A DNA stretch of 36,314 nt. Origin: Chloroflexota bacterium (GTDB lineage: Bacteria; Chloroflexota; Anaerolineae; Promineifilales; Promineifilaceae). Position numbers and translations under genes: made by a program. Positions within the stretch are counted from its first letter, which is position 1. Every line of letters begins with the position of its first letter. The DNA lies in assembly GCA_020629055.1 (NCBI GenBank), contig JAHDEB010000043.1, positions 1 through 36,314 of the forward strand, given 5' to 3'. The notes under the pieces are model-generated. The model was not told where the DNA came from, did no database searches, and saw only the letters and a list, made by a program, of their open reading frames with translations. Positions 4,100 through 29,748 of this stretch are shown here, piece by piece.

Positions 4100-5314
4100 A
4101 TGTCTGATCGAATACGAACCGTTTCATCTCTCTTTTTAGCCGTCTTGATTGTAGCCATTCTCATCATGTTTTGGTCAGCTACATTCAAGAATCCGGCCGG
4201 GGCGGTCAACCGAGACTTTCTAAGTTTCGCCCTCGCTGCCAAAATTGTTGATGAAGATGGGTATCAGCATATTTACCAATTGGATCGGCAGAAACAGGCG
4301 ATGGAAGAGATCATTAATGGACCACATCAGGTTGAAGGTGGCGTTTTGCCCTTCATCCATCCCCCATTTTTAATGCCGCTCATGAACTGGGTCATCGGCC
4401 CTAACCTGTTCAACTCGTTTTTAGCATGGACGGCCGTCAGCATCGGCGTATTGGCCCTATGTCTAAAATTATCAGCCGATTATTTAATCCATGCAGGTTG
4501 GCAAAAAAAGTCGGCCGTGTATCTGCTCGCCCCTCTGGCATTGTTCTTGCCCGTTCATATTACACTGCTGCAAGGACAAGACATTATCTTTTTACTCTTG
4601 GGCGTCGTCATTTTTCTAGTGGCCCTGCAACAAAATCGTCTAGTGTGGGGTGGATTTGGTTTGGCCCTCACCACCTTAACACCGCACATCGCCCTGCTGC
4701 TAGGCATCCCTCTATTTTTTAGCAAACGAAATTGGTTTTATTCATTTGTAGGCTGGAGCTTACTATTCGCCATTTTTAGTATCAGCCTCATCGGCATCAA
4801 TGGGGTTTTTGACTATTTAGACATCATTGGCGCAACCGCGTCAGCTGAAGGCAGAACCTATGGTGTCAACAAGAATGCGATGACCAATTTGATAGGGCTA
4901 ACCCTACGCTTGTGGCCCGCAATGTCATCAAACACCATATCTACAGTTACTTGGGGCGGCTATCTCTTCGGGATGGGCAGTCTTTGCTGGCTCCATTTTA
5001 ATTATCGTAAAGCAACAGAGAATACCTTTGAGCTTGTTTTTGCCTTCACGATCGCATTCGGCCTGTTTTTTGTCCCTCACCTACACTCTCACAGCCTCCT
5101 CCTATTGTGGGTTCCCTTACTCGTCTGGGCGCATCATCGAGTTCAGGCGCACATGCAGCCTCTCCCGCAAATCGCCCTCATTTTACTCATGGCTTCAACC
5201 TTAATTGCGCCACTCCTTGCCAACGCCCTGCCATTCAATTGGGTCGGGGTCTTCGTTGTTATCTTTTCTACAATGGCACTCCTCTACCGAGCCTTGAAAG
5301 ATAATCCATCCTAA
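4100..5314 (+). CDS. GT87 (DUF2029)-like polytopic membrane glycosyltransferase, copy 2
   Basis: A 404-residue paralogue of the preceding protein, recognisable along its whole length. Shared landmarks are NPAGAVNRDF in the first loop, GVLPFIHPPFL, LQGQDIIF, VWGGFGLALTTLTPH, TASAEGRTYGV and RLWPA. It is predicted polytopic with the same topology and the same conserved Asp (RDF) and HPPF loop. I place the start at ATG-4100. A longer reading from 4004 overlaps the upstream gene by about 80 bases and begins with non-conserved basic sequence. No clear Shine-Dalgarno precedes it (AAAGAAAG only). Probably a GT-C glycosyltransferase acting on a lipid-linked sugar at the outer membrane face. The retained conservation suggests both copies are functional, perhaps with different acceptors. 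Confidence 0.75.
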   Translation: MSDRIRTVSSLFLAVLIVAILIMFWSATFKNPAGAVNRDFLSFALAAKIVDEDGYQHIYQLDRQKQAMEEIINGPHQVEGGVLPFIHPPFLMPLMNWVIGPNLFNSFLAWTAVSIGVLALCLKLSADYLIHAGWQKKSAVYLLAPLALFLPVHITLLQGQDIIFLLLGVVIFLVALQQNRLVWGGFGLALTTLTPHIALLLGIPLFFSKRNWFYSFVGWSLLFAIFSISLIGINGVFDYLDIIGATASAEGRTYGVNKNAMTNLIGLTLRLWPAMSSNTISTVTWGGYLFGMGSLCWLHFNYRKATENTFELVFAFTIAFGLFFVPHLHSHSLLLLWVPLLVWAHHRVQAHMQPLPQIALILLMASTLIAPLLANALPFNWVGVFVVIFSTMALLYRALKDNPS

Positions 5315-5321
5315 AATAAAA

Positions 5322-5352
5322 AGCGGATGTGTGGGTTAGTCACACATCCGCT
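5322..5352 (-). terminator. Intrinsic terminator of the giant TSP3 gene
   Basis: A 12-bp perfect stem (AGCGGATGTGTG with its complement) and 7-base loop. On the minus strand it is followed by a T-rich tract (complement of the A-rich 5313-5321). It lies 60 bases past the stop of the minus-strand gene ending at 5412. It may also block read-through from the plus-strand GT87 pair, which ends at 5314. A second small stem (GATCGA/TCGATC, 5363-5380) precedes it. Confidence 0.85.
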
Positions 5353-5411
5353 GCAAAGAAATGATCGATTTGCGTCGATCACCGTTAGCCTAGAAACAGC
5401 CGGCTTACAGG

Positions 5412-8400
5412 TTAAGGGCGACGAGACTCTTCCGCCTCGGTAAACGGAGCCACGACCTGCATATAAAAGCTCATCGCATAATCTCGTTCTAAGCGGAACG
5501 TTGGGGCACCTAATCGCTCATAAACCGGATCATGGAAAATGACTTCATAAACCACTTCACCTTCAATCAAGAAGACACCGGGCTTAGCGTTACGAATGTA
5601 CACACATTGGCCATCTGTCCGTTGGCACCGAATATCACGGCCGCCGCTTGTTTGAAAGATAATCGGCGTCAAACTCTCCAAATCCCATTCATAAAATGCA
5701 CGTTCCACATCCGGCATGCCCAAACCGTCTAATGTCGCTTGGCGCGCCACACAAAGACCGTTCCCCACGTTGTCTATCCAATAGCGACATTCACTGTATG
5801 GCACTTCTGCATAGCGCACGCTGCCATCGGCCGTTACCGGCGACACAATTGGAGAATCAAGCAAATTGCCGCTCGATGGGTCAGGTCCATAAGTATCCCC
5901 AAAGATACGGATCATCTGGGTCACACTAATTGTCTCCTGAGACTGGACGCCAATCACACCATAAATGATGTCGCTATCCAACTCACAGCCAGGATACCCC
6001 GGATTGTTCAAGCACCAACGGGTTGTCATCATCGGCGGTATCGATGTTTCTACCCCCGGCCCCACATACAAGGGGACCTGAATCGGGTTAATCAACCGTT
6101 CACCCATGGCGATATCACGCGAGCGACTCCCGGAGAAATCGCCAAGTTCCTCAGCAAATTCAGCGTACACGAACGGCTCGACCACTTCATTCCCTTCCCA
6201 AATCTTGATCACATTTATGTTGTAATCGACCCGGTCATTCTCAGGAACTTGATCACCGCCAATATGCTCGGCCGCTGCATAGCCTAAAATCTCATTCAAG
6301 GGGTACGTCCCTGCAATACGGCCTCTAAAGGTCAAGAATTGCTCTTCAGTATTCAATTCAATCCCCAAGTCATTGCATACAGCCAGCCACGTGGTTTCAT
6401 CAACGTCACACACCCATGTTCCAACCGGTACCGCAACCGCATTGGTAATTTCCAGCGGCAACTGGATGGTAACAGTCGACTGTCGTGCGTGTTGGGGACC
6501 GTTATTCGCCACAAACGCTCGAATCTCGATCTCATGAGAAAGTTCCCAATCACCAGAGTAGGTTTTGGTTGGGTCATCAAAGGTGATGTTGCTCACCGGC
6601 TCAAATTCTAAGCGGGGTTCAAGGTCAGTTCGGCAATCGATCGTAATCGCCACATCTTCAGTCTCACCAAATCCACCATATCCTATCGGATTATTGGTCG
6701 CCTCTTGAGAAATGCGGAAGCGAGCATATGTCCGGCCGCAGGCGACTTCAAATGGAACGGTAAATTCCAAATCTGCTAGAACCTGATTCTGATCCGACCG
6801 GTTCACCACACGACTCTGAATCAACTCATAGAAGTCAAACAGCCCATTCCCGTCAAAATCGATCCACATATCAAAGAATGCACTTTCAAATTGGTCATTA
6901 AATACCTGAATATCAACCGAATAGGTACGATCTGGGAAATAGACCAAACCGGTATCATAGGCTGGGTTCTCTGTCTGATTCCAAGTCACCCCATTTTCAT
7001 CATCGATGTCATTGTTATCATCGTCTAAAGCATCTGGATTGCCCGGGAATGGATTTTCCTCATGGTCCGGCCGTGTGTCTTTGTTGCCCAGCCAAAGGTC
7101 TACATTGGTATTGATGCTATTAAAAGCATCGCCATAGCTAGGTGGCGCGTCTCCGCGATCTTGATCGGCCGAAAACTCACGATAGTCAACATCCCCATCC
7201 GTTTCCGCATTTGCATCCTCGTCATTCAAGTCTCGCCATGGCAAATCGACAATCCCATTATTGTCTCGGTAATCGCTTGCTGGGTTCACAAGGTCATCGA
7301 TACCATCCAGAATATCGTCACGATCAGCCAAAAACAAACCGCTTTCCCATTCGTCTAAGGCGAAGTCATTGTCACTGTCTAGGTCCAAATAGTCCGGTTC
7401 TCCATCTCCATCTGTATCTTCAGGCAATGGGAAGTTGCCGCCAAAATTACCCGTTAGCCGGTCATTTCTGTCAAAGACACCAATGGCACCATCGGTATCA
7501 AAATCATCATCGCGTACATCACCGTCGTTGCCATAGCGTGGGTCAAACCCTTTGGTCGGTTTCCCTTCAATCACGTCTGGAATCCCGTCGCTATCACTGT
7601 CTAGGTCGATGTAGTCGTGCAAAATGTCTGTGTCGCTATTAACGGGGATCGTTCCGATCGAGGTGAGGTAACTCGGATCACTGGTATCCCGGTCAAAAAT
7701 ATCCATTAGACCATCACCATCAGCGTCTGCGACCCCGCCATTCGCTGCGGCCGCCTCGGCCAACGAGATCGTTCCATCTTTATTAAGGTCGGCCGCAATC
7801 AAGGCTGCGCTTGCCCCACTTTCAATCAAGTCACTAATACCATCATTATCACTGTCTAAGTCACACGCATCAGGGATTTCATCATTGTCTGTGTCCCGAG
7901 TTGCGAAAAACGGTGGGAAGCGCTCGTCTGACATCATAAAACAGGGGACGGTCCCACCCGGATAATAAAAGAGGACCTGCAAATTGTATTGTTCGACCGG
8001 GCTGCCGGGAACAATGTAAATACCACCATGACAGCTTTGGCCAAACGCATACGAATTGGCCGTCCACCCATATTTTGTGTTGAACAAGTGGGATGTGACA
8101 TCAGTTGGCCCTGGATTCGCACTTGAGACACCGCCGTGAAACAGCCCTTCGAATGTGCCGCCTAGCTTTTGATACCAATTTTTACCAAAAATACTGTAGC
8201 AGCCAGCCTGAAGAACAAGCCCCGGTGCGGGACCATCTGCACTTTCTTTGATCATTGCAGCTGTTATAGCCCGAGCCTCACCACCCCCGTTTCGGTAAAC
8301 GTGGAAGTCATAGTCACCACCTGCGATCATCACATTCCCAGGGTCGATGGCGATCTCCCAAACTGGCCGAGATGCGGCCGCGACATTAAAATCAGTTGCC

Positions 8401-10430
8401 CCTCCCAGCGCAGTACAATCATCATTCCCGATCCATAAAACATCAAAGGTTTGGAAATCGGCAACGCTCATCGTGCCCCAATCTGCCGTTGGAACAACTT
8501 GCACGCAAATCCCATTATTCAACGAATGCACAGAATTTGCCCCAACCATCCCTCGCGTAACAGATCCTCCGTATAGAGCGACCGCCACTTGATCACTAGG
8601 GCAGTTATTGGTTGCCTGAGGGGAAAGGGTCGCGTGACTGTTATTGCCGCTGGTACGGCCACTAAATCCACTTGCTAAAGCATCTCCATCCGGATCAACA
8701 TTAATATTCTCTTCCCGATCCACAATCCCATCATTGTCGTCATCAATGTCAGTCGCATTGGGAACCCCATCACCATCTTTGTCATCTGGATCAATCGTTG
8801 GTGGCACCCAAAGTTCTCGATACGCGACTTCGGTGTTGTCCCCACTTTCATTTAGTAACGTTGTCTGAGGGTCATTGATTCGGCCGTTTGGATCTGGATA
8901 GCTCGGATTGGCAGGACCTCCACCTTCAACCGTTAACCCATGCTCTTCAGTGTCTGATCTACCATCATTATCACTATCTGTATCAAGATAGTCCGGCTCA
9001 TCCGCTGTGTCTGTATTCACAGGGTCATTAAAACTACCCCCAAACGTCCCGTTGTTATCATAGATACCGATAACGCCATCTCCATCAGCGTCATCGTCGG
9101 TCACGTTGTCGTCAGTTGCAAAATCTATCCCATATCTGTCTGTTAATTGAGCTTCAACCGCATCTGGAATGCCGTCATTATCGCTGTCTAAGTCAATATA
9201 GTCTTGCTCGTCTCCCCCATCGCTGTTCACAGGGTCAGTCCCGCCGGAAGCGGCTTCATCAGGATTACCTGGATCATTGTCAAAGATATCCATCAACCCA
9301 TCACGATCCGCATCCGCAACCCCACTTTCCCCTAAATTCACCGTTCCATTTTTATCCCCATCTGCACTAATTTTGCCGGCGGCCGCACCACTCTCAACTA
9401 AGTCACTGATCCCATCATTATCACTGTCTAAGTCACAAGCATCTGGAATGCCATCTCCATCCGTATCTTCAGTGCGGGCGATATTGAGCTGAAGTGCATC
9501 AAACAGCAAGACCGCGCCCGTTTTTCCAGGTGCATTGACCGCATTCTCTGCGCCAAATATGACCATGTTGTAATCTTTGGTTGGGGTAAATGTGATGTTG
9601 TATTCTTGCCAATTGCCGGCCGGTACAGTCAGTGACCCACGGTACACTTCTTCCATCCCGCTCGTTGAACCGATATAGCCTGAAGTTGGTAATGGAAATT
9701 CTGAAGGAACGCCGCCGGTTTTAGCGTAGACGACCAGTTGTCCAGAATAATTTCCCCCATAGGGTTCGGGGCCATCTTTGATCGCGCCTAACAATAGGTC
9801 AAAACTATATTCGGTTCCAACAATCATTGGGGCGGTTAAAATGTTGCCCACATATTCGGCATAACTTGAGCTGACATGGATAGAGCCGACAAACCCTTCG
9901 CCGTCTGGGGTTGGTGACGCTTGTCCCAAACCACCGGCCGGCCCCATAAAGCCACGCTCGTGATAATAATCTGAAGTGGCACCGGTGGCTTGATACCAGC
10001 CGATGACCCGATTCATTTGAGTAAAGCTTGTTGGTAATGAGGTGAAATCTTCAAAGTCTGGATTTGGGAATAGCGACTCAATATCCCCACCGCTAGATGT
10101 CCCTTCTTTGCCATCAACAATCCCATCATTGTCATTGTCAATATCGATGCTATCCGGCAAACCATCACCATCAGTGTCCCGATCGGTTTCGCCACACTCA
10201 AATACATCTGGGTCAGCTCCCCCCTGCCTTACATCAAATTGTGGCTCGCCTAATGCAGGTGAAAATACGTTGGGCGAAGATAGATAATGGGTGCCTAACT
10301 CTAAGCCAGACGAAAAAACGATATCCTGTTGCATCGATATCGCGATACAAGCCACACACATAACAAAACACAATCTAAATTTTGATCGTCGAATAAGTTT
10401 ATCTCGCATAATTTTTCCCACCCAAAGCAT
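5412..10430 (-). CDS. Giant secreted thrombospondin type-3 repeat / GEVED domain surface protein
   Basis: A 1672-residue acidic secreted protein. The N-terminus has basic residues then a hydrophobic stretch (about 18-35), a signal peptide. ATG-10430 is the outermost start; ATG-10409 (Met8), preceded by GGGTGGG, may be the real one. Domain order: TSP3-like calcium-binding repeat (84-106), unique ectodomain 1 (115-320), TSP3/EF-hand-like array of DxDxDGxxD units (320-500), another TSP3 unit (548-572), unique ectodomain 2 with several Cys (590-845), second TSP3 array (845-1040), a GEVED domain beginning DRGDAPPSYGDA (1090-1250), a DUF11-like beta-sandwich (about 1260-1400) and a C-terminal region without a recognisable anchor. 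The two TSP3 arrays are duplicates (see findings). Probably a cell-surface adhesin or structural protein. No LPXTG or other sorting signal is seen. Confidence 0.9.
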   Translation of the reverse strand: MLWVGKIMRDKLIRRSKFRLCFVMCVACIAISMQQDIVFSSGLELGTHYLSSPNVFSPALGEPQFDVRQGGADPDVFECGETDRDTDGDGLPDSIDIDNDNDGIVDGKEGTSSGGDIESLFPNPDFEDFTSLPTSFTQMNRVIGWYQATGATSDYYHERGFMGPAGGLGQASPTPDGEGFVGSIHVSSSYAEYVGNILTAPMIVGTEYSFDLLLGAIKDGPEPYGGNYSGQLVVYAKTGGVPSEFPLPTSGYIGSTSGMEEVYRGSLTVPAGNWQEYNITFTPTKDYNMVIFGAENAVNAPGKTGAVLLFDALQLNIARTEDTDGDGIPDACDLDSDNDGISDLVESGAAAGKISADGDKNGTVNLGESGVADADRDGLMDIFDNDPGNPDEAASGGTDPVNSDGGDEQDYIDLDSDNDGIPDAVEAQLTDRYGIDFATDDNVTDDDADGDGVIGIYDNNGTFGGSFNDPVNTDTADEPDYLDTDSDNDGRSDTEEHGLTVEGGGPANPSYPDPNGRINDPQTTLLNESGDNTEVAYRELWVPPTIDPDDKDGDGVPNATDIDDDNDGIVDREENINVDPDGDALASGFSGRTSGNNSHATLSPQATNNCPSDQVAVALYGGSVTRGMVGANSVHSLNNGICVQVVPTADWGTMSVADFQTFDVLWIGNDDCTALGGATDFNVAAASRPVWEIAIDPGNVMIAGGDYDFHVYRNGGGEARAITAAMIKESADGPAPGLVLQAGCYSIFGKNWYQKLGGTFEGLFHGGVSSANPGPTDVTSHLFNTKYGWTANSYAFGQSCHGGIYIVPGSPVEQYNLQVLFYYPGGTVPCFMMSDERFPPFFATRDTDNDEIPDACDLDSDNDGISDLIESGASAALIAADLNKDGTISLAEAAAANGGVADADGDGLMDIFDRDTSDPSYLTSIGTIPVNSDTDILHDYIDLDSDSDGIPDVIEGKPTKGFDPRYGNDGDVRDDDFDTDGAIGVFDRNDRLTGNFGGNFPLPEDTDGDGEPDYLDLDSDNDFALDEWESGLFLADRDDILDGIDDLVNPASDYRDNNGIVDLPWRDLNDEDANAETDGDVDYREFSADQDRGDAPPSYGDAFNSINTNVDLWLGNKDTRPDHEENPFPGNPDALDDDNNDIDDENGVTWNQTENPAYDTGLVYFPDRTYSVDIQVFNDQFESAFFDMWIDFDGNGLFDFYELIQSRVVNRSDQNQVLADLEFTVPFEVACGRTYARFRISQEATNNPIGYGGFGETEDVAITIDCRTDLEPRLEFEPVSNITFDDPTKTYSGDWELSHEIEIRAFVANNGPQHARQSTVTIQLPLEITNAVAVPVGTWVCDVDETTWLAVCNDLGIELNTEEQFLTFRGRIAGTYPLNEILGYAAAEHIGGDQVPENDRVDYNINVIKIWEGNEVVEPFVYAEFAEELGDFSGSRSRDIAMGERLINPIQVPLYVGPGVETSIPPMMTTRWCLNNPGYPGCELDSDIIYGVIGVQSQETISVTQMIRIFGDTYGPDPSSGNLLDSPIVSPVTADGSVRYAEVPYSECRYWIDNVGNGLCVARQATLDGLGMPDVERAFYEWDLESLTPIIFQTSGGRDIRCQRTDGQCVYIRNAKPGVFLIEGEVVYEVIFHDPVYERLGAPTFRLERDYAMSFYMQVVAPFTEAEESRRP
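7726..7875 (-). repeat. Internal repeat copy B of the TSP3 array head
   Basis: Encodes the DACDLDSDNDGISDL...VADADGDGLMDIFD segment of the second module. Bases 7840-7865 are identical over 26 nt to 9412-9437, about 1.57 kb away in the same orientation, marking an internal gene duplication. Confidence 0.8.
9280..9447 (-). repeat. Internal repeat copy A of the TSP3 array head
   Basis: Encodes the DACDLDSDNDGISDL...VADADRDGLMDIFD segment of the first module. It shares the 26-nt identical core 9412-9437 with 7840-7865. The protein-level similarity extends well beyond the identical DNA core. Confidence 0.8.
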
Positions 10431-19286: not shown

Positions 19287-20966
19287 CTACTTCGTTTCGA
19301 TTTTAACATTATCAAAGCGAACCTCATGAGCCCCATCCCCATTATTGGCCGTTACCAGCCCGCTAATCCCAGCCACAGGTTCAGTGTCTCGACTAGACAA
19401 AACGCGAAAATCATTGATAAATAAATCGATATCTTCGCCTATGCAATGCATCTCCAACACAAATGTCCCTAAATCTCTAATGATCAACTCTTCAGAAATC
19501 TCCTCTGAATCGATGCTAACCAGCTCGTTATTTGTAAAGCGGAAAGAGGTTGCCGTCTGCACACCACCATTTTTGTCAACAACGACCCCAAAGAAGCGAG
19601 TCTCATCTTCAATTTGATGCAGTCTGCAAACCAAGCCAACCTTATAGTTATTTGCCCGGTCCGACTCTAAAAGTTCAACCCGCATCGCACTATCCGTCAG
19701 ATCATTCGCCAAGCTGGCGGGCCAAAGCTTTAAGTCCTGATTGTCCGTTTGAATTTGCAGCGCCCCATCAACGAATCCGATCCCATCAGCCAAATCCTCT
19801 TGGCTAGAATTAACATCGAATCGGTCAGAATAGACTAGATTGTCATTCACACCAGCTTGCAATGTTTGAACCGGCGTACTCGGTGCTTGGGTGACCGCTA
19901 TTGTTGGAACCGAAGTCGGGGTCACCCTAAAAAAGTCAGGATTTTGTGAAATTATAAATATCAGAAAGCCGGTTATCAAGGCGGCTAAGAGCAAGAACGA
20001 GCCAAAAATCAGAACCAACCAACGGCTATTCTTATCAACATCTTCCCATCCTGGCGTGTGCGGTTCATTCAACTCATCTGCGCCAGATATAGTCGAAATT
20101 CCGCGTGGTGGGGTTAGGGTTCTAATTGGCAAAGTCGGTCCCGAGCTTGACGGCCGTACCGGTGCATCTGGGTTACGAATCGCATATTGCAACAGCTGCC
20201 CAAATTGCCCGGCCGACTGCGGCCGCCCATCCGGTTTTTTAGACATCCCCCAAGTTATGAGTTCAGCGACCGCTGGTGAAATATCTGGATTCACATCACG
20301 AGGATCAGGCACCGGCTCGTTAATCTGTTTGACCATCACCGCAACCGGTGTCTCACCCGTGTAGGGCTTCTCACCCGTCAACAATTCGTATAAAGTCACT
20401 GCGAGAGAATAGATGTCGGAACGGCCGTCTAACGCATCCCCACGCGCCTGCTCGGGCGAAATATAAGCAGCACTACCAAGTCCGCGGCTCTCACCGTCAG
20501 AAGGGAACATTGCGATACCAAAATCAGATAAATAGACAAACCCATTTTGGTCCAAAAGCATATTAGATGGCTTCACATCTCGATGCAAAACGCCGCGCGC
20601 ATGAGAAAAATCAAGCGCCTCAGCCATTTGGATGATGACTTCAAATACTTTTTCTGGGTCGGGGCGACTTCCCCCTCTCACCCAGTCGGCCAAACTGCCC
20701 CCCTCTAGTAACCGCATCACAAGATATGGTTGATCACCTGAAAAACCAAAGTCGTAAACGGGCAAAATATGGGGGTGCTCAAGAGAAGCAATAATTTCCC
20801 CTTCACGGCTAAATTGATCTAACTTATCTTGGTTGCTAGATGTAATTAGCTTTAAGGCAACCTCACGCGATGTTTCTATCTGTATAGCCCGATAAACCGT
20901 ACTCATCCCTCCGCGGCCGGCGATCTCTAAAATTTGGTATCCGGTTATTTGAGGTAAGTCAGACAT
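19287..20966 (-). CDS. Transmembrane Hanks-type Ser/Thr protein kinase with lectin-like outer domain
   Basis: A 559-residue kinase (start ATG-20966; a TTG at 21008 would add 14 poorly plausible residues). The N-terminal catalytic domain (10-265) has the glycine loop GRGGMSTVY (17-25), Lys39 (VALKL), HRDVKPSN (128-135), DFG (148-150) and SPEQ in place of APE. A Ser/Pro-rich juxtamembrane linker leads to one transmembrane helix (about 316-340). The outer region (about 375-559) is a beta-rich jelly-roll resembling concanavalin A-like/LamG-type domains: FDVNSSQEDLADGIGFVDGALQI and FINDFRV. It probably senses a ligand outside the membrane and phosphorylates cytoplasmic targets. No PASTA repeats. 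A second kinase lies upstream on the same strand. Confidence 0.92.
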   Translation of the reverse strand: MSDLPQITGYQILEIAGRGGMSTVYRAIQIETSREVALKLITSSNQDKLDQFSREGEIIASLEHPHILPVYDFGFSGDQPYLVMRLLEGGSLADWVRGGSRPDPEKVFEVIIQMAEALDFSHARGVLHRDVKPSNMLLDQNGFVYLSDFGIAMFPSDGESRGLGSAAYISPEQARGDALDGRSDIYSLAVTLYELLTGEKPYTGETPVAVMVKQINEPVPDPRDVNPDISPAVAELITWGMSKKPDGRPQSAGQFGQLLQYAIRNPDAPVRPSSSGPTLPIRTLTPPRGISTISGADELNEPHTPGWEDVDKNSRWLVLIFGSFLLLAALITGFLIFIISQNPDFFRVTPTSVPTIAVTQAPSTPVQTLQAGVNDNLVYSDRFDVNSSQEDLADGIGFVDGALQIQTDNQDLKLWPASLANDLTDSAMRVELLESDRANNYKVGLVCRLHQIEDETRFFGVVVDKNGGVQTATSFRFTNNELVSIDSEEISEELIIRDLGTFVLEMHCIGEDIDLFINDFRVLSSRDTEPVAGISGLVTANNGDGAHEVRFDNVKIETK

Positions 20967-21098
20967 GAGGTAAGTGAAGGGGCATCGTCTACTTGATAAC
21001 TTTTCCAACCGTGCAAAAAACGGTCAGCTAGACAAAATGCAGCAAAGATTATAGCGTAGACTAGTAATCAATCCCAAGGTGGGCTTTTCGTCTGATCT

Positions 21099-23168
21099 TT
21101 ATTCGATAGAGCTAATATCGACTCGGTGAATTAAGCCGGTCGACTCTGACCCAACCCACAAATAGGCACAATCAGTTCCACAGGGTTCTACCGTTAAGGT
21201 TGTAGGGCTTACAATTTTATCCAGCGATCCGATAAATGATCCTTCCGCGGCATCAAAGACATTGATGAGGCTGTCCCCTCTCGCGACAACGTAAACGAAA
21301 TCCTCATGTACAGCAACATCTAAGGGAAGGTCGCTTGTGGCTATCGAACCAATCTCTTCCCCTGTAACCGAATCCAGTTGATAAAGCTGGTTATCCCGGT
21401 TGAGTGTTACCCATAATCTTTGGCTCTCATCCGTTCCGGTGATTGAGATAAGCTGACCCGTAACGTTAGACAGGTTAACTGTAACTTCAAATGTTCGAGT
21501 GGCGAGGTCGAACTTGAGCAAGTCACCACTCCCTTCCATAGCTACCCAAATTGCAGAACCGGCGTGATAGAGCGCTCCTGCGGAATTGGGGCTACCATCT
21601 GGCATCCCAACGACCAATCCAGCATCATAATTACTCAGTTCATTCCCTTGTAGATCGATTTCAATCAAATTCTGCCCGGTACTAATCCAAATTGAATCGT
21701 CAACACGCACAGCGTCTACGGGGATGTAGGGGAAATCTAACGTGCGTACATTGGCGCTATCAAGTGAAACGGCGACGAGCCCTTGGGTCAACTGACGGCC
21801 GACCAAGACCTCATTGCCAGCTGGTACCAAAAACTGCGGCCGGCTGCCAACTGGAACTCTTGCCAAAATTGATCCACAATCAATTTGATCTGCACTACAG
21901 TCGGTTCGAAGCAAAAATAATTCATTTGTATCGTGATTAATGACCCAAACCTGCCCAAGATCATCTAATTCAATATCTTTTGGCGTCTCTGAAATACTGA
22001 CCGCCACCGGTTCCAATTGTGGGATCGGGTTCGTAATCTGACGATAAAAAAGATAGGCAAGATACGCAAGGCCAAGCAACAACAAAATTCCTAAAGTCGA
22101 AAACAGTAAGATTCGTCGGTTTCTTTGGGTAAACCAAGTTTCCGTTGGCAGATCGATGACTTCTTGTGTTTGGTCATTCGCCTGTTGCTCCATTTCTTCC
22201 TTGGTCGGAATCTTGCGCATCCGCTTTTTAGTTTCTTCATCTGTCTGTCGCTCTACAGCTTCTTCTGTCGTGGCAGGTGCATCCACTTTGCCCGAAGACT
22301 GAAACGGAACCCAGTTGGGATCTAAATCAGCCAAGGCTTTGTTTAAATCAGCCGCAAACATCCGGCCGGTTTCGTATCGATCTGTATATTCTTTCGAAAG
22401 GACCTTGCTAAATATCCGGTCTAAATCAGCAGGTAAATCAGGCTGATAACCAAGAATAGATGGCACAGGATCAGAGATTTGCTTTAGAACGGTATCCATC
22501 GGATTTTGGCCCGAAAATGGCGGATGCCCAGACAAGAGTTGAAACACAATGACGCCGAGAGAATAAATATCTGTTCGGCCGTCCAGCTTTAAGCCACGCA
22601 CCTGCTCAGGCGACATATACTCAGGGGTTCCAGATATCCCCTCGTCGGTCCGTGTTAGGTCATAAGAGCCAGAAACTGTTTTCGCCAAGCCGAAGTCGGC
22701 CAAATAGGCGTTTTCCCGTTCATCAAGAAAAATATTCGACGGCTTAATGTCCCGATGAATAATGCCCTGCTGATGCGCATAATCGATCGCAGTAACCAGT
22801 TGGTCTACGACAGCCAGCATTTTCTTTAATGTCAGTTTTCCTGATTGGAAATGGTCACGTAGCGTTCCCCCATTCATATGGCGCATCACGATGTATGGGT
22901 TCCCAAACACCTCTCCAAAACCATAAACCGGAACAATATGCGGATGCTCCAAATGCGAGATCATATAGACTTCCCGCTCAAATCGTGCCACTGTATCTGA
23001 ATTGTCTTTATCTACTTCAGGTAAAAACTTGATCGCGACCAATCGGTTCATTGACTCTTGGAACGCCAAAAACACCTGACCCATTCCGCCAGATGCAATT
23101 TCTTCTTTGAGTATATATTGATCAATCTTTTGCCCGGGCTGGAATCGAGCAGTATGGAATTCGTTCAA
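21099..23168 (-). CDS. Transmembrane Hanks-type Ser/Thr protein kinase with beta-propeller outer domain
   Basis: A 689-residue kinase beginning at TTG-23168; AGGA lies a few bases upstream, and the first in-frame ATG falls inside the glycine loop, so TTG must be used. The catalytic domain (15-285) has ASGGMGQVF (25-33), Lys47 (VAIKF), HRDIKPSN (138-145), DFG (158-160) and TPEYMSPEQ. A charged linker (300-345) leads to one transmembrane helix (about 353-375). The outer domain (about 390-689) has repeated WV/IW...LxxxDxxT blades (QVWVINHDTNEL, SIWISTGQNLIEI, RLWVTLNRDNQLYQL, YLWVGSESTGLI) of an NHL/YVTN-like beta-propeller. It is probably a sensor kinase. It lies 132 bases upstream of the second kinase gene, on the same strand. 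Confidence 0.92.
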   Translation of the reverse strand: MNEFHTARFQPGQKIDQYILKEEIASGGMGQVFLAFQESMNRLVAIKFLPEVDKDNSDTVARFEREVYMISHLEHPHIVPVYGFGEVFGNPYIVMRHMNGGTLRDHFQSGKLTLKKMLAVVDQLVTAIDYAHQQGIIHRDIKPSNIFLDERENAYLADFGLAKTVSGSYDLTRTDEGISGTPEYMSPEQVRGLKLDGRTDIYSLGVIVFQLLSGHPPFSGQNPMDTVLKQISDPVPSILGYQPDLPADLDRIFSKVLSKEYTDRYETGRMFAADLNKALADLDPNWVPFQSSGKVDAPATTEEAVERQTDEETKKRMRKIPTKEEMEQQANDQTQEVIDLPTETWFTQRNRRILLFSTLGILLLLGLAYLAYLFYRQITNPIPQLEPVAVSISETPKDIELDDLGQVWVINHDTNELFLLRTDCSADQIDCGSILARVPVGSRPQFLVPAGNEVLVGRQLTQGLVAVSLDSANVRTLDFPYIPVDAVRVDDSIWISTGQNLIEIDLQGNELSNYDAGLVVGMPDGSPNSAGALYHAGSAIWVAMEGSGDLLKFDLATRTFEVTVNLSNVTGQLISITGTDESQRLWVTLNRDNQLYQLDSVTGEEIGSIATSDLPLDVAVHEDFVYVVARGDSLINVFDAAEGSFIGSLDKIVSPTTLTVEPCGTDCAYLWVGSESTGLIHRVDISSIE

Positions 23169-23733: not shown

Positions 23734-24972
23734 CTAAGCTTCAGCAGAAGCAAGCTTGATGCAAAGTGCAACCACTTCCATCGCTTTTTCTACTTCTTCT
23801 ACAGGTGGACGGGTTGGTGCCAGACGAATGTTCTTATTATTCGGGTCAACACCACCTGGGTAGGTCGCTCCGGCTGGGGTCAGCGCAACACCTACCTCTT
23901 TCGCCAATTCTACCACACGACTAGCTACCGGTTTAGTCGTATTCAGGCTGATAAAGTAGCCCCCTTTTGGCTTGGTCCATTCCGCAAGGCCGGTACCTGC
24001 TAAATGCTGGGTCAGCACTTTGTCAACGACATCAAATTTCGGTTTGATAATAGCTGCATGCTGCTTCATTAAGCCTTCGATACCCCCGTCGATCGTTTGA
24101 AAGAAACGAACATGGCGATATTGCTCAACTTTGTTTGGGCCAATCGTTGTTAGGCCAAACAATTTAGAGAAGTAAGCAACATTGTCGACACTGCTGCCCA
24201 TAAATCCGATACCGCCACTTGCAAAGGTTACTTTTGAAGTTGAACCGAATAAAATGGCCCGATTTGGATTACCGGCCGCCTCTGCAGCTCGAATAAAGTT
24301 CAAGGGTTCATCTTTATCTGTATGATCCAAATGATGTACCGCATAAGCGTTGTCGGCCAAAATAGTGAAGTCAGGGGCCGCGGTCGGCATACTGACCAAA
24401 CGGCGTACTACCTCATCTGAAACAGATTCACCCGTTGGATTGCTGTAAACGGGAACAAAATAGATCCCCTTAATTGAAGCATCCTCGGCAACCAATTTCT
24501 CGACCGCATCGATATCTGGCCCTTCGCTCGTCATCGCCACAGGAACCAATTCAAAACCTAGCCCCTGAGCCAACTTAAAGTGGCGGTCATAACCAGGCAC
24601 AGTCACGATTAGCTTAGGATTATCTTGTGACCATGGTCGTGGGCTGCCATTAACCCCTTTGAGCAACGCCCAAGTTAAAACTTGGGTCATGATCATTAGG
24701 CTGGCATTGGTTCCTAAGATCACTTCGTCAGCGTTTACACCGATCATGCCGCTAAACAGCTCGCGGGCTTCTGGCAAACCGGCTACACCGCCTGGGTAAT
24801 TTCGAATTTCAATCCCAGAAGGGGTTACAGTGTCTTCACCGCTGACCATGTTCAGCATTCCGTTTGACAGATCAAAATTCGCATCGGCCGGTTGTCCGCG
24901 GGTCATCGCCAATTTTAGGTCCAAAGCTTTGTATGCTTCGAATTGCTCTTTGAGTTCTTGAATATCGCTCAT
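23734..24972 (-). CDS. PLP-dependent aminotransferase, class I/II (PF12897 aspartate aminotransferase-like)
   Basis: A 412-residue fold-type I aminotransferase. PLP-binding landmarks: Asn178 in YSNPTGE, Asp207 and Tyr210 in ADNAYAVHHL, and Schiff-base Lys247 in GSTSKVTFASGG. The N-terminus (LKLAMTRGQPADANFDLSNGML) and the RNYPGGVAGLPEAREL stretch match the PF12897 group, in which characterised members are aspartate aminotransferases. It lacks the MocR-type HTH domain. Cytoplasmic. Start ATG-24972 is preceded by AGGA at 7-8 bases. It diverges from the CobT-like gene across 226 bases, and its own terminator marks it as monocistronic. Amino-donor specificity is inferred only. Confidence 0.9.
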   Translation of the reverse strand: MSDIQELKEQFEAYKALDLKLAMTRGQPADANFDLSNGMLNMVSGEDTVTPSGIEIRNYPGGVAGLPEARELFSGMIGVNADEVILGTNASLMIMTQVLTWALLKGVNGSPRPWSQDNPKLIVTVPGYDRHFKLAQGLGFELVPVAMTSEGPDIDAVEKLVAEDASIKGIYFVPVYSNPTGESVSDEVVRRLVSMPTAAPDFTILADNAYAVHHLDHTDKDEPLNFIRAAEAAGNPNRAILFGSTSKVTFASGGIGFMGSSVDNVAYFSKLFGLTTIGPNKVEQYRHVRFFQTIDGGIEGLMKQHAAIIKPKFDVVDKVLTQHLAGTGLAEWTKPKGGYFISLNTTKPVASRVVELAKEVGVALTPAGATYPGGVDPNNKNIRLAPTRPPVEEVEKAMEVVALCIKLASAEA

Positions 24973-25198: not shown

Positions 25199-26182
25199 AT
25201 GATTTATATTCCAGACATTCCTCTAATCGATTTTGCAGCCCAACAAGCGGCCCGCGACCGGCTACAAGCACTTGGGCATCCGAACGAAATGCTAAATGCC
25301 TTGGCGATTCGGGTGGCAACAATTCGTGGTGAGCTCGACGTTCAACTGGACCAAAAACGAGTCGTTCTAATCGGGGCAGATTCAGGTCACACGGCGGTAG
25401 ATCCGGCCGAAACTGTCCAAAGAATGCAAGAAACCGTAGATGGGAAAGCTGAAATTTGCGCCATTGCTCAGCAACATCAAGCAACTATCACCTTAACCGA
25501 TGTAGGAATGACTCATCCATTTACCCATCCATCGGTCCAAAGCCTTCGCATCGCCAAAGGTGGCAATATGGCCGCAGGGTCAGCAATGGTCATCACAGAA
25601 GTCAATGATGCATTTATGGTCGGCATGAATATCGGTTCGCTTGAAATTTCGAACGGTATGAATCTACTAGCGGCCGGGGCGATTACCAGTCGTGGCGGTG
25701 CACTTTCCGCCATTGCGGTCGCAGCCGTACTGGGGCAAATCCCCGTTGCTGAAATCATGCCAGAATCTGATCCATTTGCTTTAAACTTAACCATTCCGGC
25801 CCAAATCGAATTGATCGAACATGCGATCAAGCTGAACAACCCTGAAAAAATCGATGTGATCGACGTGATTCGCACAGTCGGTTCGGCCGAAATCGCCACG
25901 ATAGCAGGGCTCATGCTCGTTGCAGCGGCTGGTCGTGTGCCGGTTATCATTGATGGGTTAATTTCAGCCGCGGCCGCATACACGGCCGCCAGTTTAAATC
26001 CGGCCATGCGTTTTACACTCATCGCCGGAAAAGCACCCATTCATCCGGCCCATTCTTATATTTTGCAAAAATTAGGCTTACGTCCTCTAATCGAATTAGA
26101 AACAACCGACCAAGCGGCCGTTGGCGCCGCTTCCGCATTCACCATGGTCGATGCAGCGACACAGCTATTGGCAGACAAATAA
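25199..26182 (+). CDS. Divergent CobT-fold protein (nicotinate-nucleotide:DMB phosphoribosyltransferase-like), probably catalytically altered
   Basis: A 327-residue protein alignable along its length with CobT, which makes alpha-ribazole phosphate for the lower cobamide ligand. Conserved parts: LNALAIRVATIRG near the N-terminus, DVGM (101-104), SAEIATIAGLMLVAAAGRVPVIIDGLISAAAAY (split across 229-261), and KLGLRPLIEL (291-300). Key differences: the GEGSGA loop carrying the catalytic Glu of Salmonella CobT (Glu317) reads QAAVGA here, so the Glu is Ala306. The GIGEMGIGN motif with Glu174 reads NIGSLEISN, giving Ser147. DHG of the N-terminal domain reads DSG. No cobalamin genes are nearby. ATG-25199 has no Shine-Dalgarno. 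It starts a four-gene run with sppA-like, cmoA and cmoB. A non-canonical activity or regulatory role is possible. Confidence 0.75.
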   Translation: MIYIPDIPLIDFAAQQAARDRLQALGHPNEMLNALAIRVATIRGELDVQLDQKRVVLIGADSGHTAVDPAETVQRMQETVDGKAEICAIAQQHQATITLTDVGMTHPFTHPSVQSLRIAKGGNMAAGSAMVITEVNDAFMVGMNIGSLEISNGMNLLAAGAITSRGGALSAIAVAAVLGQIPVAEIMPESDPFALNLTIPAQIELIEHAIKLNNPEKIDVIDVIRTVGSAEIATIAGLMLVAAAGRVPVIIDGLISAAAAYTAASLNPAMRFTLIAGKAPIHPAHSYILQKLGLRPLIELETTDQAAVGAASAFTMVDAATQLLADK

Positions 26183-26232: not shown

Positions 26233-28035
26233 ATGTCAGAACAAAACAAACCCTCTACGTTCAAAAAAATGTTAAAAATGCCGGCAAACTTCTTTAAGGG
26301 AGTAGGCCAACGTTACCGCAAGGGGCGTATCGCTCTGTTTAACTTTTGGCGGCGCAAGGCACAAGTCGGTTACGTCCGCATTTCACTCAGCGGCTCGTTC
26401 CCAGAACGAGAAGGCCCCGCACCCAGTTTTTTCCAAAGCTTTATTCCAAACCCATTAGAATCTGGCTCTAAGCCCATGTCGATGCAGGCGCACAACGCCC
26501 GGCTGCAGCAAATGATTGATGCGAAAAACCTGAAGGGGGTCATTTTCACACTAGATGGATTGGCCGTTAGCTTGGCCCGTTTGCAAAGTTTACGCCAAGG
26601 GTTTGAACGGCTAAAAGCGGCCGACAAAGAGGTCATTGTCACGATGAAATCGGTGTCGATCGGCCAACTTTATTTGGCAAGCGGGGCCGATAAAATCATC
26701 GTTCCGCATACGGCCGATTTCAGCGTGATGGGCCTTTATAGCCAAACGATGTTTTTTAAAGATGCACTGGCCGAGGTTGGGGTGGAAATGGCGAATTTTC
26801 AGATTTCGCCTTACAAGTCGGCCGTCGACCCTTTTAGCAAATCAGAAGCATCCCCAGAATTTCAAGAACAAACCAACTGGCTGATGGATGAAAACTGGGA
26901 ATTTCTCACCGCTGGTATTGCGGCCGGTCGCGGTATGAGCCAAGACGCCTTTAAAAAAATCATAGATGAAGCCCCACACACCGCTCCAGAGGCGCACCAG
27001 CTCGGGCTCATTGATCATTTAGCCTATGATGATGAAATCGAACATTTACTATTTGAACCCCAAACGGATGAAGAAAAAGCGGCCGACAAAACGATCCGCA
27101 TCACCGATTGGGAAACCGCATCTAAAAAAATGTGGCGCAAATGGCGAAAAATTGATCGTGAAAAGGTCATTGCCGTGGTCAGCTTAGAAGGGCCAATTGT
27201 GATGGGAGAGAGTCAAAATCCCCCTGTCGAACTGCCGATTCCTCTTGTAGGGGGCAAAAACGCGGGGGATGTTACCCTCGTTCGCCATATCCGTATGGCG
27301 GAACAAATGCCTAATTTAGGGGCACTGGTTTTCTATGTGAACTCTCCAGGCGGCAGTGCATTATCATCTGACCTAATCGCCCGCGAAATTGAGCGGGTAA
27401 GCAAAAAAGTACCGGTGATCGCTTATATGGGGGATGTGGCCGCTTCGGGCGGTTACTACGTTTCTGCTCCCGCCACACATATCATGAGCCAGTCAGTCAC
27501 CATCACCGGATCAATCGGTGTGGTTGCAACATTGCCAATTGTAACTGAGCTTTTAGGCAAATTGAAGATCAATTATCATGAATTTAAACGTGGCAAAATG
27601 GCAGGCCTGATCGGTAGCCCGAATTTGACTGATGAAGCACGCGAAAAAATTATGGGCATGATTGAGGATGGATACAAGACCTTCAAGTGGCTTGTTTCTA
27701 CCCATCGGGATATTCCATATGACACTCTTGATGAAATTTGTTTAGGACGAGTATGGACCGGCCGACAGGCGCAAGGTCATCATTTGGTTGACAGCCACGG
27801 CAACTTTCTAGATGCCCTGGCCAAAGCGCGTGAACTGGCCGACTTGCCGGACGATCCTGAGATCATGGTGCCGGTGGTCAACGTCTATGACAACAAAAAA
27901 GCATATGAGTTCGCTCCCCCATTCCCTGATCCCGCCAAAGCGATTAACAGTATGTTTAACCTGCCAGACCAATTGCGCAAACGATTTAGCGGTACACAAT
28001 ATTTAATGCCGTTTGATTTTAAGCTCGATTTATAA
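26233..28035 (+). CDS. sppA: S49-family signal peptide peptidase, SppA 67K type, lacking a membrane anchor
   Basis: A 600-residue double-domain S49 serine protease. The Ser/Lys dyad is intact: Lys195 in SPYKSAVDPF (equivalent to E. coli SppA Lys209) and Ser405 in GDVAASGGYY (equivalent to Ser409). The oxyanion-region motif YVNSPGGSA (368-376) and TGSIGV are also present. In E. coli the enzyme degrades cleaved signal peptides at the periplasmic membrane face and has an N-terminal membrane helix. Here residues 1-45 are basic and amphipathic (KMLKMPANFFKGVGQRYRK) with no helix long enough to cross the membrane, suggesting peripheral inner-face association or cytosolic use. It lies 50 bases after the CobT-like gene and 12 bases before cmoA. 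No Shine-Dalgarno. Confidence 0.9.
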   Translation: MSEQNKPSTFKKMLKMPANFFKGVGQRYRKGRIALFNFWRRKAQVGYVRISLSGSFPEREGPAPSFFQSFIPNPLESGSKPMSMQAHNARLQQMIDAKNLKGVIFTLDGLAVSLARLQSLRQGFERLKAADKEVIVTMKSVSIGQLYLASGADKIIVPHTADFSVMGLYSQTMFFKDALAEVGVEMANFQISPYKSAVDPFSKSEASPEFQEQTNWLMDENWEFLTAGIAAGRGMSQDAFKKIIDEAPHTAPEAHQLGLIDHLAYDDEIEHLLFEPQTDEEKAADKTIRITDWETASKKMWRKWRKIDREKVIAVVSLEGPIVMGESQNPPVELPIPLVGGKNAGDVTLVRHIRMAEQMPNLGALVFYVNSPGGSALSSDLIAREIERVSKKVPVIAYMGDVAASGGYYVSAPATHIMSQSVTITGSIGVVATLPIVTELLGKLKINYHEFKRGKMAGLIGSPNLTDEAREKIMGMIEDGYKTFKWLVSTHRDIPYDTLDEICLGRVWTGRQAQGHHLVDSHGNFLDALAKARELADLPDDPEIMVPVVNVYDNKKAYEFAPPFPDPAKAINSMFNLPDQLRKRFSGTQYLMPFDFKLDL

Positions 28036-28047
28036 ACCCCAATCCCA

Positions 28048-28770
28048 ATGAGTTCTGACAATATCTTCTCTAAAAAACGAGATGTCACCCCTTTTCAATT
28101 TGATGCAGAGGTGGTCAAAGTCTTCCAAGATATGATCGGCCGATCTGTGCCCGGTTACGAGCTAACCCTGCCTCTGATCGGCCTGATCGCTGCACGATAT
28201 GTGCGGCCGAACAGCCATGTCTATGATCTCGGCTGTTCACTGGGGGCGGCCAGCGTCATCATGCGCAATCATATTAAGCAGGATGGGGTCCACATGGTCG
28301 GCATTGACAACTCTCAGGCGATGGTGGACCAATGCCGCATCAATATCGCCAATGACGCGTCTGATGTGCCGATGGAGATCTTGCTCGGCGATATCCGTGA
28401 GGCCGACATTCAAAATGCCAGCATGGTTGTGCTCAACTTCACCCTACAATTTATAGATCCGGCCGATCGTGACAGCTTGATACAACGCATTTATGCAGGT
28501 CTAAACCCTGGCGGCGTCTTCGTTGTATCTGAAAAAGTCGTCTTCGATTCGGAACAGCAAACAGACCGTTTTATCGATTTACACCATGACTTTAAACGGG
28601 CCAATGGATACAGCGAACTTGAGGTGGCCCAAAAACGGACCGCCATCATGAATGTGCTCATCCCCGAAACGATCGCTGATCATCAGAAACGGATGCTGGG
28701 TGCCGGTTTTAAATCGGCCGAACTTTGGTTCCAAGCACTCAACTTTTGCTCCATGCTGGCGATTAAATAA
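28048..28770 (+). CDS. cmoA: Carboxy-S-adenosyl-L-methionine synthase CmoA
   Basis: A 240-residue class I methyltransferase-fold enzyme that converts SAM and prephenate to carboxy-SAM. SAM motif I is VYDLGCSLG (58-66). The N-terminal SVPGYE stretch and the C-terminal HHDFKRANGYSELE and LWFQALNF stretches are near-identical in pattern to E. coli CmoA, distinguishing it from ordinary methyltransferases. Length fits (E. coli 247). It starts 12 bases after the SppA gene and ends six bases before cmoB, so the three are co-transcribed. No Shine-Dalgarno is visible before ATG-28048, so translation may rely on coupling. Its product is used by CmoB. Confidence 0.95.
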   Translation: MSSDNIFSKKRDVTPFQFDAEVVKVFQDMIGRSVPGYELTLPLIGLIAARYVRPNSHVYDLGCSLGAASVIMRNHIKQDGVHMVGIDNSQAMVDQCRINIANDASDVPMEILLGDIREADIQNASMVVLNFTLQFIDPADRDSLIQRIYAGLNPGGVFVVSEKVVFDSEQQTDRFIDLHHDFKRANGYSELEVAQKRTAIMNVLIPETIADHQKRMLGAGFKSAELWFQALNFCSMLAIK

Positions 28771-28776
28771 AAGCCT

Positions 28777-29748
28777 ATGTTTGATTACTCAGCATTTCTT
28801 GACTCCGTCCAAAATACCCAATTGGCCTCTTGGGGGTCTAGCCTCGCCCAGACAATCCCATCAGCCCTAAACCCAGATGCACATGGCAAGCTGGCCGAAT
28901 GGCGCTCGGCCGTCGAGCGATTGCCAAGCGTCACCCCAAGCGAAATTGACCTGCTAAACGCGGTCACCATCGGCCGAGAATCGGACCTTTCGCCTGAACA
29001 ACATGCACACTTGCTAACTCAGCTACGCATCCTGCACCCATGGCGCAAAGGGCCGTTTCACCTGTTTGGCCATCATATCGAGACTGAATGGCATTCTGAC
29101 TGGAAATGGGATCGGGTTAAAGATGAAATCGCACCATTAACTAATAGGCGGGTGCTAGACGTAGGCTGTGGCAACGGTTATTTCGGTTGGCGCATGGTAG
29201 GTGCTGGTGCAAAAGAGGTGATCGGCATAGACCCCTATATCGTTTTTGTGATGCAGTTTTTCGCCATGCGTCGCTATTTGGCCGCAAGCAACAATTGGGT
29301 CTTACCCATCGGCATCGAGCAGTTACCGGCCGGGCTGCGCGCATTTGACACCACCTTTTCGATGGGTGTTCTTTATCACCGCAAATCACCGATTGACCAT
29401 CTGTTTCAGCTGCGTGATTCGCTCCGTTCCGGTGGTGAGCTTGTGCTCGAGACATTGGTTGTAGACGGCAAACTGGGTGAAGTGCTGGTGCCAGAAGGTC
29501 GCTATGCGCAAATGCGGAATGTTTGGTTTTTGCCCTCAACGCTGACATTAGAATCATGGCTGCGCAAATGTCAGTTCAAAAATGTACGATTAGTCGATGT
29601 GACCCCTACCACTTCAGCAGAACAGCGATCAACCGATTGGATGACGTTCCACTCGCTAAAAGATTATCTAGACCCTGCAGATTCAAGTAAAACGATTGAA
29701 GGTCACCCATCTCCGGTACGGGCCGTTTTTGTGGCGGATGCACCTTAA
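28777..29748 (+). CDS. cmoB: tRNA (5-carboxymethoxyuridine34) synthase CmoB
   Basis: A 323-residue SAM-fold enzyme that transfers the carboxymethyl group of carboxy-SAM to 5-hydroxyuridine at tRNA wobble position 34, giving cmo5U. Diagnostic stretches: PWRKGPF (88-94), TEWHSDWKWDRV, VLDVGCGNGY (126-135), FSMGVLYHRKSP, LETLVVDG, and RYAQMRNVWF. All are highly similar to E. coli CmoB, with the same total length. It lies six bases after cmoA. The hydroxylation enzymes that make ho5U (TrhO or TrhP) are not in the window. The gene converges on purB with only 49 bases between, and no convincing terminator is visible. Confidence 0.95.
   Translation: MFDYSAFLDSVQNTQLASWGSSLAQTIPSALNPDAHGKLAEWRSAVERLPSVTPSEIDLLNAVTIGRESDLSPEQHAHLLTQLRILHPWRKGPFHLFGHHIETEWHSDWKWDRVKDEIAPLTNRRVLDVGCGNGYFGWRMVGAGAKEVIGIDPYIVFVMQFFAMRRYLAASNNWVLPIGIEQLPAGLRAFDTTFSMGVLYHRKSPIDHLFQLRDSLRSGGELVLETLVVDGKLGEVLVPEGRYAQMRNVWFLPSTLTLESWLRKCQFKNVRLVDVTPTTSAEQRSTDWMTFHSLKDYLDPADSSKTIEGHPSPVRAVFVADAP

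Follow-up and report, generated by a model that had tools for sequence, protein, structure and literature searches.

A putative CobT-derived pseudoenzyme encoded beside sppA in one genus of Chloroflexi

The window, a stretch of 36,314 nucleotides of Chloroflexota DNA, encodes a 327-residue protein (P0001) of the CobT family that has probably ceased to be an enzyme as regards the CobT reaction, its activity being judged from its sequence. CobT, the nicotinate-nucleotide:dimethylbenzimidazole phosphoribosyltransferase, is a vitamin B12 enzyme. Motif loss in P0001 is wider than the two glutamates implicated in catalysis and takes in practically every substrate-contact motif. A CobT-derived pseudoenzyme with a non-catalytic binding or structural role is the most likely explanation, favoured with some reserve. 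The source genome of the window (G000) was compared with four further genomes of its genus (G001 to G004); P0001 and its relatives in G002, G003 and G004 form a clade so far found in this one genus of a Chloroflexi class only. No report of a CobT pseudoenzyme was found in the literature searched, which is only part of all literature. A PF02277 or BLAST search would label P0001 as CobT, and a base-activating enzyme would then be wrongly predicted for these genomes.

The gene, its neighbours and its family match

The gene and its neighbours in the window are as follows:

23734..24972, − strand, aspartate aminotransferase type Ic (Rv3722c family), over the NF053594 cut-off, divergent
25199..26182, + strand, cobT-like gene (P0001, 327 residues), probable pseudoenzyme (PF02277 match, below the NCBIfam CobT cut-offs, AlphaFold model)
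26233..28035, + strand, sppA (peptidase S49, signal peptide peptidase), 50 bp after the cobT-like gene
28048..28770, + strand, cmoA, over the TIGR00740 cut-off, next in the same-strand run
28777..29748, + strand, cmoB, over the TIGR00452 cut-off, last of the same-strand run

The initial annotation had placed the cobT-like gene at the head of a run with SppA and CmoAB and away from cobamide genes. The run is on one strand with the cobT-like gene first, and the absence of cobamide genes holds for those genes of the window that were looked at, namely those for the aspartate aminotransferase, SppA, CmoA and CmoB. Of the neighbours, sppA alone is shared by all four clade-bearing genomes, always directly downstream. 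In G002 the surroundings match those in G000, cmoA and the aminotransferase included, and so do those in G003 up to the end of its contig, again with the aminotransferase. G004 shares nothing but the link to sppA; the gene that precedes its cobT-like copy matches translin weakly, under the Pfam cut-off. The sppA loci that were read in G001 and in the family's other genera have different genes upstream of sppA. The unbroken pairing with sppA suggests that the two genes are expressed together, though they need not act in one pathway. Near the cobT-like gene no riboswitch or other known RNA was found, and a scan for promoters and terminators gave results near chance level. The presence of cmoA and cmoB (tRNA wobble uridine 5-oxyacetic acid pathway), both over their equivalog cut-offs, was noted in this Chloroflexi genome; the pathway is best known from Proteobacteria.

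P0001 passed the curated cut-off of PF02277 (DBI_PRT, the CobT fold) along its full length (residues 8-325, E 1e-55, 189.8 bits against a cut-off of 22.6), and its phmmer alignment with S. enterica CobT and other solved CobTs was end-to-end and collinear. P0001 reached roughly half the threshold of each of the two NCBIfam CobT models, with 162.5 bits for the equivalog TIGR03160 (cut-off 319.3) and 172.4 bits for NF000996 (cut-off 306). With TIGR03160 the G002 orthologue scored 155.9 and the G004 relative 218.8, and the canonical CobTs of G001, G003 and G004, which passed both NCBIfam cut-offs, scored 457-470 bits.

Lost motifs and comparison with known CobT-fold proteins

Residue equivalences were taken from the phmmer alignment to the S. 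enterica E174A mutant chain 4kqf, with positions counted along the printed alignment, and from a second alignment of 39 rows made with MAFFT, which included 36 canonical Chloroflexi CobTs and agreed with the phmmer placements. The altered sites lie in the window at:

25382..25390, + strand, codons of Ser62, Gly63 and His64, the former DHGV motif, now D-S-G-H (alignments)
25679..25681, + strand, codon of Ala161, equivalent of Glu174 (phmmer against 4kqf, MAFFT)
25760..25780, + strand, codons 188-194 (PESDPFA), replacing the GRGTGVD loop (alignments)
25802..25804, + strand, codon of Gln202, equivalent of S. enterica Lys213 (phmmer, MAFFT)
26114..26116, + strand, codon of Ala306, equivalent of catalytic Glu317, LGEGxGA having become DQAAVGA (phmmer, MAFFT)

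Both catalytic glutamates had been described as absent, which was correct, but only one of them had been placed correctly. Glu317 falls exactly on Ala306 with phmmer and with MAFFT. Glu174, which had been put at Ser147, falls instead on Ala161 in ...AAGAITSRGG... in the phmmer alignment to 4kqf, and in the 39 MAFFT rows the invariant G160 is followed by Ala161 at that position; Ser147 lies within the helix GMNIGSLEIS, where the canonical CobT of G001 likewise has Ser. The change of DHG to DSG had been read correctly.

The general base Glu317 is thus missing from P0001, and the replacing Ala306, whose conservation was checked, is kept throughout the clade (4/4). Position 174 is Glu or Asp in the family, and Asp in most Chloroflexi CobTs (GDMGIGNTT); the ribose-contact acid is absent from P0001, which has Ala161 against canonical G[ED]MGIGN. 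GGAL, PESDP and Gln202 stand where canonical CobTs have GNTT, GRGTG and Lys213. Altogether TKPxGSLG, DHGV..GVS, GGAAIN, GNTT, GRGTG, GG, HxS and LGEGxGA are changed or absent, and the C-terminal ATFAEAGVS tail is lacking. The Glu at 317, the Lys at 213 and the His of DHG are each present in 36/36 canonical Chloroflexi CobTs, and given this invariance the losses in P0001 are far beyond chance. P0001 otherwise resembles CobT in length, in predicted fold and in the core EIAT..AG..AAA.RVPV.IDGLIS.

Several clade-specific features were found in the old pocket. His64, which is Val or Ile in canonical CobTs, is common to all clade members, and in P0001 the base-pocket loop (..EGVS..) that comes after D-S-G-H carries a deletion. 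Arg43, His64, Gln77, Asn136 and Ser151 are polar residues fixed in the clade and different from those of almost all canonical CobTs. The alignment held no new conserved Asp or Glu specific to the clade. A second glutamate was considered separately as a substitute for the lost one: two positions further along, Glu occurs in G002 and G003 (QAAEGA) and Val in G000, so that this residue is not conserved.

The fold was predicted with AlphaFold. Using the 39-row alignment, P0001 was modelled with pLDDT 95.0 and pTM 0.94, in a model that leans toward the CobT fold as the rows are mostly canonical CobTs; with three rows only, the pLDDT was 38. Foldseek matched the model to the CobTs of Yersinia and Salmonella (S. 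enterica) with TM 0.88-0.90, to ArsA/ArsB with TM about 0.87 and, weakly, to archaeal CobT with TM about 0.6. As the initial annotation expected, the overall fold of CobT is thus predicted to be retained, in a model that leans on the canonical alignment.

Loss of Glu317 alone is no proof of inactivity, since the general base of M. jannaschii CobT is Asp52, with Val at position 317 (PMC9561151), and the S. enterica E317A structure contains reaction products, according to the title of PDB entry 4kqi. The archaeal/cyanobacterial type of CobT (TIGR00303, M. jannaschii) therefore shares with P0001 a position 317 that is not Glu, having its base elsewhere. Archaeal CobT nevertheless retains the ribose-contact Glu150 and the phosphate-binding Gly154/Thr156 (PMC9561151), whereas the P0001 clade lacks both the ribose-contact glutamate and the phosphate-binding residues, and it is for this reason that the clade was taken as probably pseudoenzymatic with regard to the CobT reaction.

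In the ArsAB complex the non-catalytic role falls to ArsB, a CobT homologue. The ArsB of Sporomusa ovata (4hdk_B) was the second-best sequence match to P0001; like P0001 it has lost GNTT and GRGTG with a CobT fold, predicted in the case of P0001, and has a shortened DHG loop, and it aligns almost without gaps with the G004 protein through the lost GRGTG region. Unlike P0001 it still has the two motifs that contain the glutamates (GEMG and LGEGTGAA). ArsA and ArsB are encoded by tandem genes (PMC6461909), whereas in the four clade-bearing genomes a single cobT-like gene is followed by sppA. To judge from these sequences ArsB is the closest working analogy for P0001, but P0001 is not itself an ArsB.

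A more literal reading of the analogy, in which P0001 would pair with a canonical CobT as a heterodimer, modulating it or completing its active site, was given little credence. The shared losses of P0001 and ArsB, which works with ArsA, and the occurrence of a canonical CobT also in G003 and G004 are in its favour; the retention of both glutamates in ArsB, the position of the cobT-like gene apart from any cobT, and the absence of a detected partner in G000 and G002 are against it, as is the odd composition of the contig that carries the G003 CobT, which is possibly foreign.

Under the preferred explanation, a pseudoenzyme, P0001 would no longer bind NaMN or synthesize alpha-ribotide and would persist as a non-catalytic protein, probably a dimer. 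Its job would depend on the retained core (residues 216-285) and also on the remodelled pocket with the new His64. By analogy with ArsB, it might serve as a ligand-binding, regulatory or structural subunit and not as a transferase. The initial annotation had put forward nucleotide or base binding, activity on another substrate, or regulation as possible roles; a non-catalytic one is preferred here.

Relatives, ancestry and selection

The orthologue in G002 is 74% identical to P0001 and shows the same motif losses. That in G003, interrupted by a run of N, is 74% identical over its readable parts, again with the same losses; the losses in P0001 are therefore not a sequencing error. The G004 relative (41% identity; L023 10328-11296, upstream of sppA) retains DHG and has lost GNTT, GRGTG and LGEG, and by its sequence is in a half-eroded, intermediate state. 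G001 has a canonical CobT alone, and G003 and G004 have one in addition to the eroded copy. Searches at the level of the family (52 genomes), the class (396) and the phylum (400) turned up no further clade members; the best other matches in the phylum bear the canonical catalytic motifs DHG and LGEG. One genus thus offers a graded series from canonical (G001) through half-eroded (G004) to fully eroded (G000, G002 and G003), a good natural case of the passage from enzyme to pseudoenzyme with the fold still under selection.

In a tree of CobT homologues, one of the checks proposed in the initial annotation, the proteins of G000, G002, G003 and G004 formed one clade (100/99), and the canonical CobT of G001 adjoined it as sister (next split 100/99), though long-branch effects could shift the exact placement of the clade. 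The members of the genus branch in the same order in the sppA tree, with G001 first, G004 next and G000/G002/G003 last. Together the sequence trees group the clade with the genus's own CobT lineage and show it to be inherited, most likely vertically, with sppA. The stem of the G000/G002/G003 group measures 1.39 and the end branches 0.08-0.13, lengths that point to a fast burst followed by rates like those of sppA. In the simplest history, a copy from the genus cobT lineage would have come to lie beside sppA in the ancestor that G004 shares with G000/G002/G003, and this copy would then have changed fast and later settled.

Between G002 and G003 the cobT-like gene gave dN 0.096 and dS 1.29 (dN/dS about 0.07), and the neighbouring sppA gave dN 0.079 and dS 1.57; the ratio rests on this pair, synonymous sites being saturated in the comparisons with G000. 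Identity between G000 and G002 is highest over residues 216-285 (93%) and is 66% over residues 286-327. The cobT-like gene is under strong purifying selection, comparable to that on sppA, in agreement with the earlier argument from the well-kept remainder of the protein.

These values bear on two alternatives. A decaying relic without function, already disfavoured, is scarcely credible: catalytic motifs have been lost and the rate was raised on the stem branch, but the four genomes show no frameshift or stop (the break in G003 is the run of N), dN/dS is as low as stated, and the core is the best conserved part of the protein. That the CobT fold was re-tooled into a new enzyme, with the deleted loop, His64, Gln77 and Asn136 as active site, is unlikely but deserves more weight than the relic. 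The strong purifying selection and the five polar residues fixed in the clade are compatible with it; the lack of a new conserved acidic residue in the clade speaks against it, and so does the lower conservation of the old active-site region near residue 306 relative to the core.

Cobamide genes in the genus and other features of the window

Cobamide genes were searched family by family in genomes of which G000 is 82% and G002 77% complete. Those located in G000 were:

G000:C50 (L059) 5280-6092 and 7788-8324, CobS and CobU, on one contig
G000:C68 (L068) 8551-9567, CbiB
G000:C362 (L062) 6278-6841, PduO-type adenosyltransferase

Several B12-binding domains were also found in G000. About 260 bp upstream of the PduO-type adenosyltransferase there is a sub-threshold match to a cobalamin riboswitch (25.4 bits, cut-off 31.5; L062 5903-6017, G000:C362:43902-44016). 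CobS and CbiB were detected in G002, and a canonical CobT in neither G000 nor G002, both genomes being incomplete. CbiC, a marker of de novo corrin synthesis, was absent from the search of G000, G002, G003 and G004 and present in G001. By gene content G000 and G002 look like cobinamide salvagers, which should need CobT. An archaeal-type CobT (TIGR00303) was considered as a hidden substitute and set aside, as it had no match in G000 while control genomes did match. In G004 the canonical CobT lies beside cobS. The term paralogue, used in the initial annotation, therefore suits G004, where a canonical CobT is also present; the search of G000 for a second, canonical CobT found none, and P0001 is the only PF02277 protein found there.

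The canonical cobT of G003 belongs to a cobamide cluster on a contig of 8.5 kb (L025, G003:C478). The tetranucleotide correlation of this contig with other G003 contigs is 0.81-0.87, against 0.90-0.92 for those contigs among themselves; because of this lower correlation the G003 CobT contig may be foreign, either a contaminant or a horizontal transfer. The chance that incompleteness alone hides CobT in G000, G002 and G003 is about 1% (0.18 × 0.23 × 0.18), a rough figure that presumes independence and a foreign G003 CobT contig.

The presence of CobS and CbiB in G000 and G002, and of CobU in G000, where no canonical CobT was found, counts against the pseudoenzyme. It is the main ground for the view that a P0001-type protein is still the base-activating enzyme of G000 and G002, working by altered chemistry: G000 has CobS, CobU, CbiB and the adenosyltransferase and no other PF02277 or TIGR00303 protein, G002 has CobS and CbiB without a detected canonical CobT, and the relocation of the general base in archaeal CobT (PMC9561151) offers a precedent. 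This view was nonetheless judged improbable. P0001 lacks phosphate- and ribose-binding residues that even archaeal CobT retains, G004 carries a canonical CobT next to cobS in addition to its intermediate copy, and genomes of such completeness may simply miss cobT. It is similarly doubtful, and to be entertained only faintly, that the lower-ligand nucleotide comes from, or is delivered by, a motif-less CobT derivative through a mechanism unlike that of known CobTs, or that the pathway runs without known base activation; this would concern the lineage of G000 and G002, and perhaps G003, in which CbiB and CobS are kept, CobU was seen in G000, and a CobT of its own may be missing. A non-catalytic, CobT-derived protein is still preferred.

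Two further features of the window were recorded. At 19287-23168 the − strand encodes two Ser/Thr protein kinases in succession, which to judge by sequence belong to the bacterial PknB type; each has a putative membrane-spanning segment together with an extracellular part, which in one of them is beta-propeller-like, and similar kinase genes adjoin the G002 and G003 copies of the cobT-like gene. A protein of 1672 residues, encoded on the − strand at 5412-10430, carries a putative signal peptide and many Asp-rich repeats of the calcium-binding type (DTDGDGIPD), and is probably secreted.
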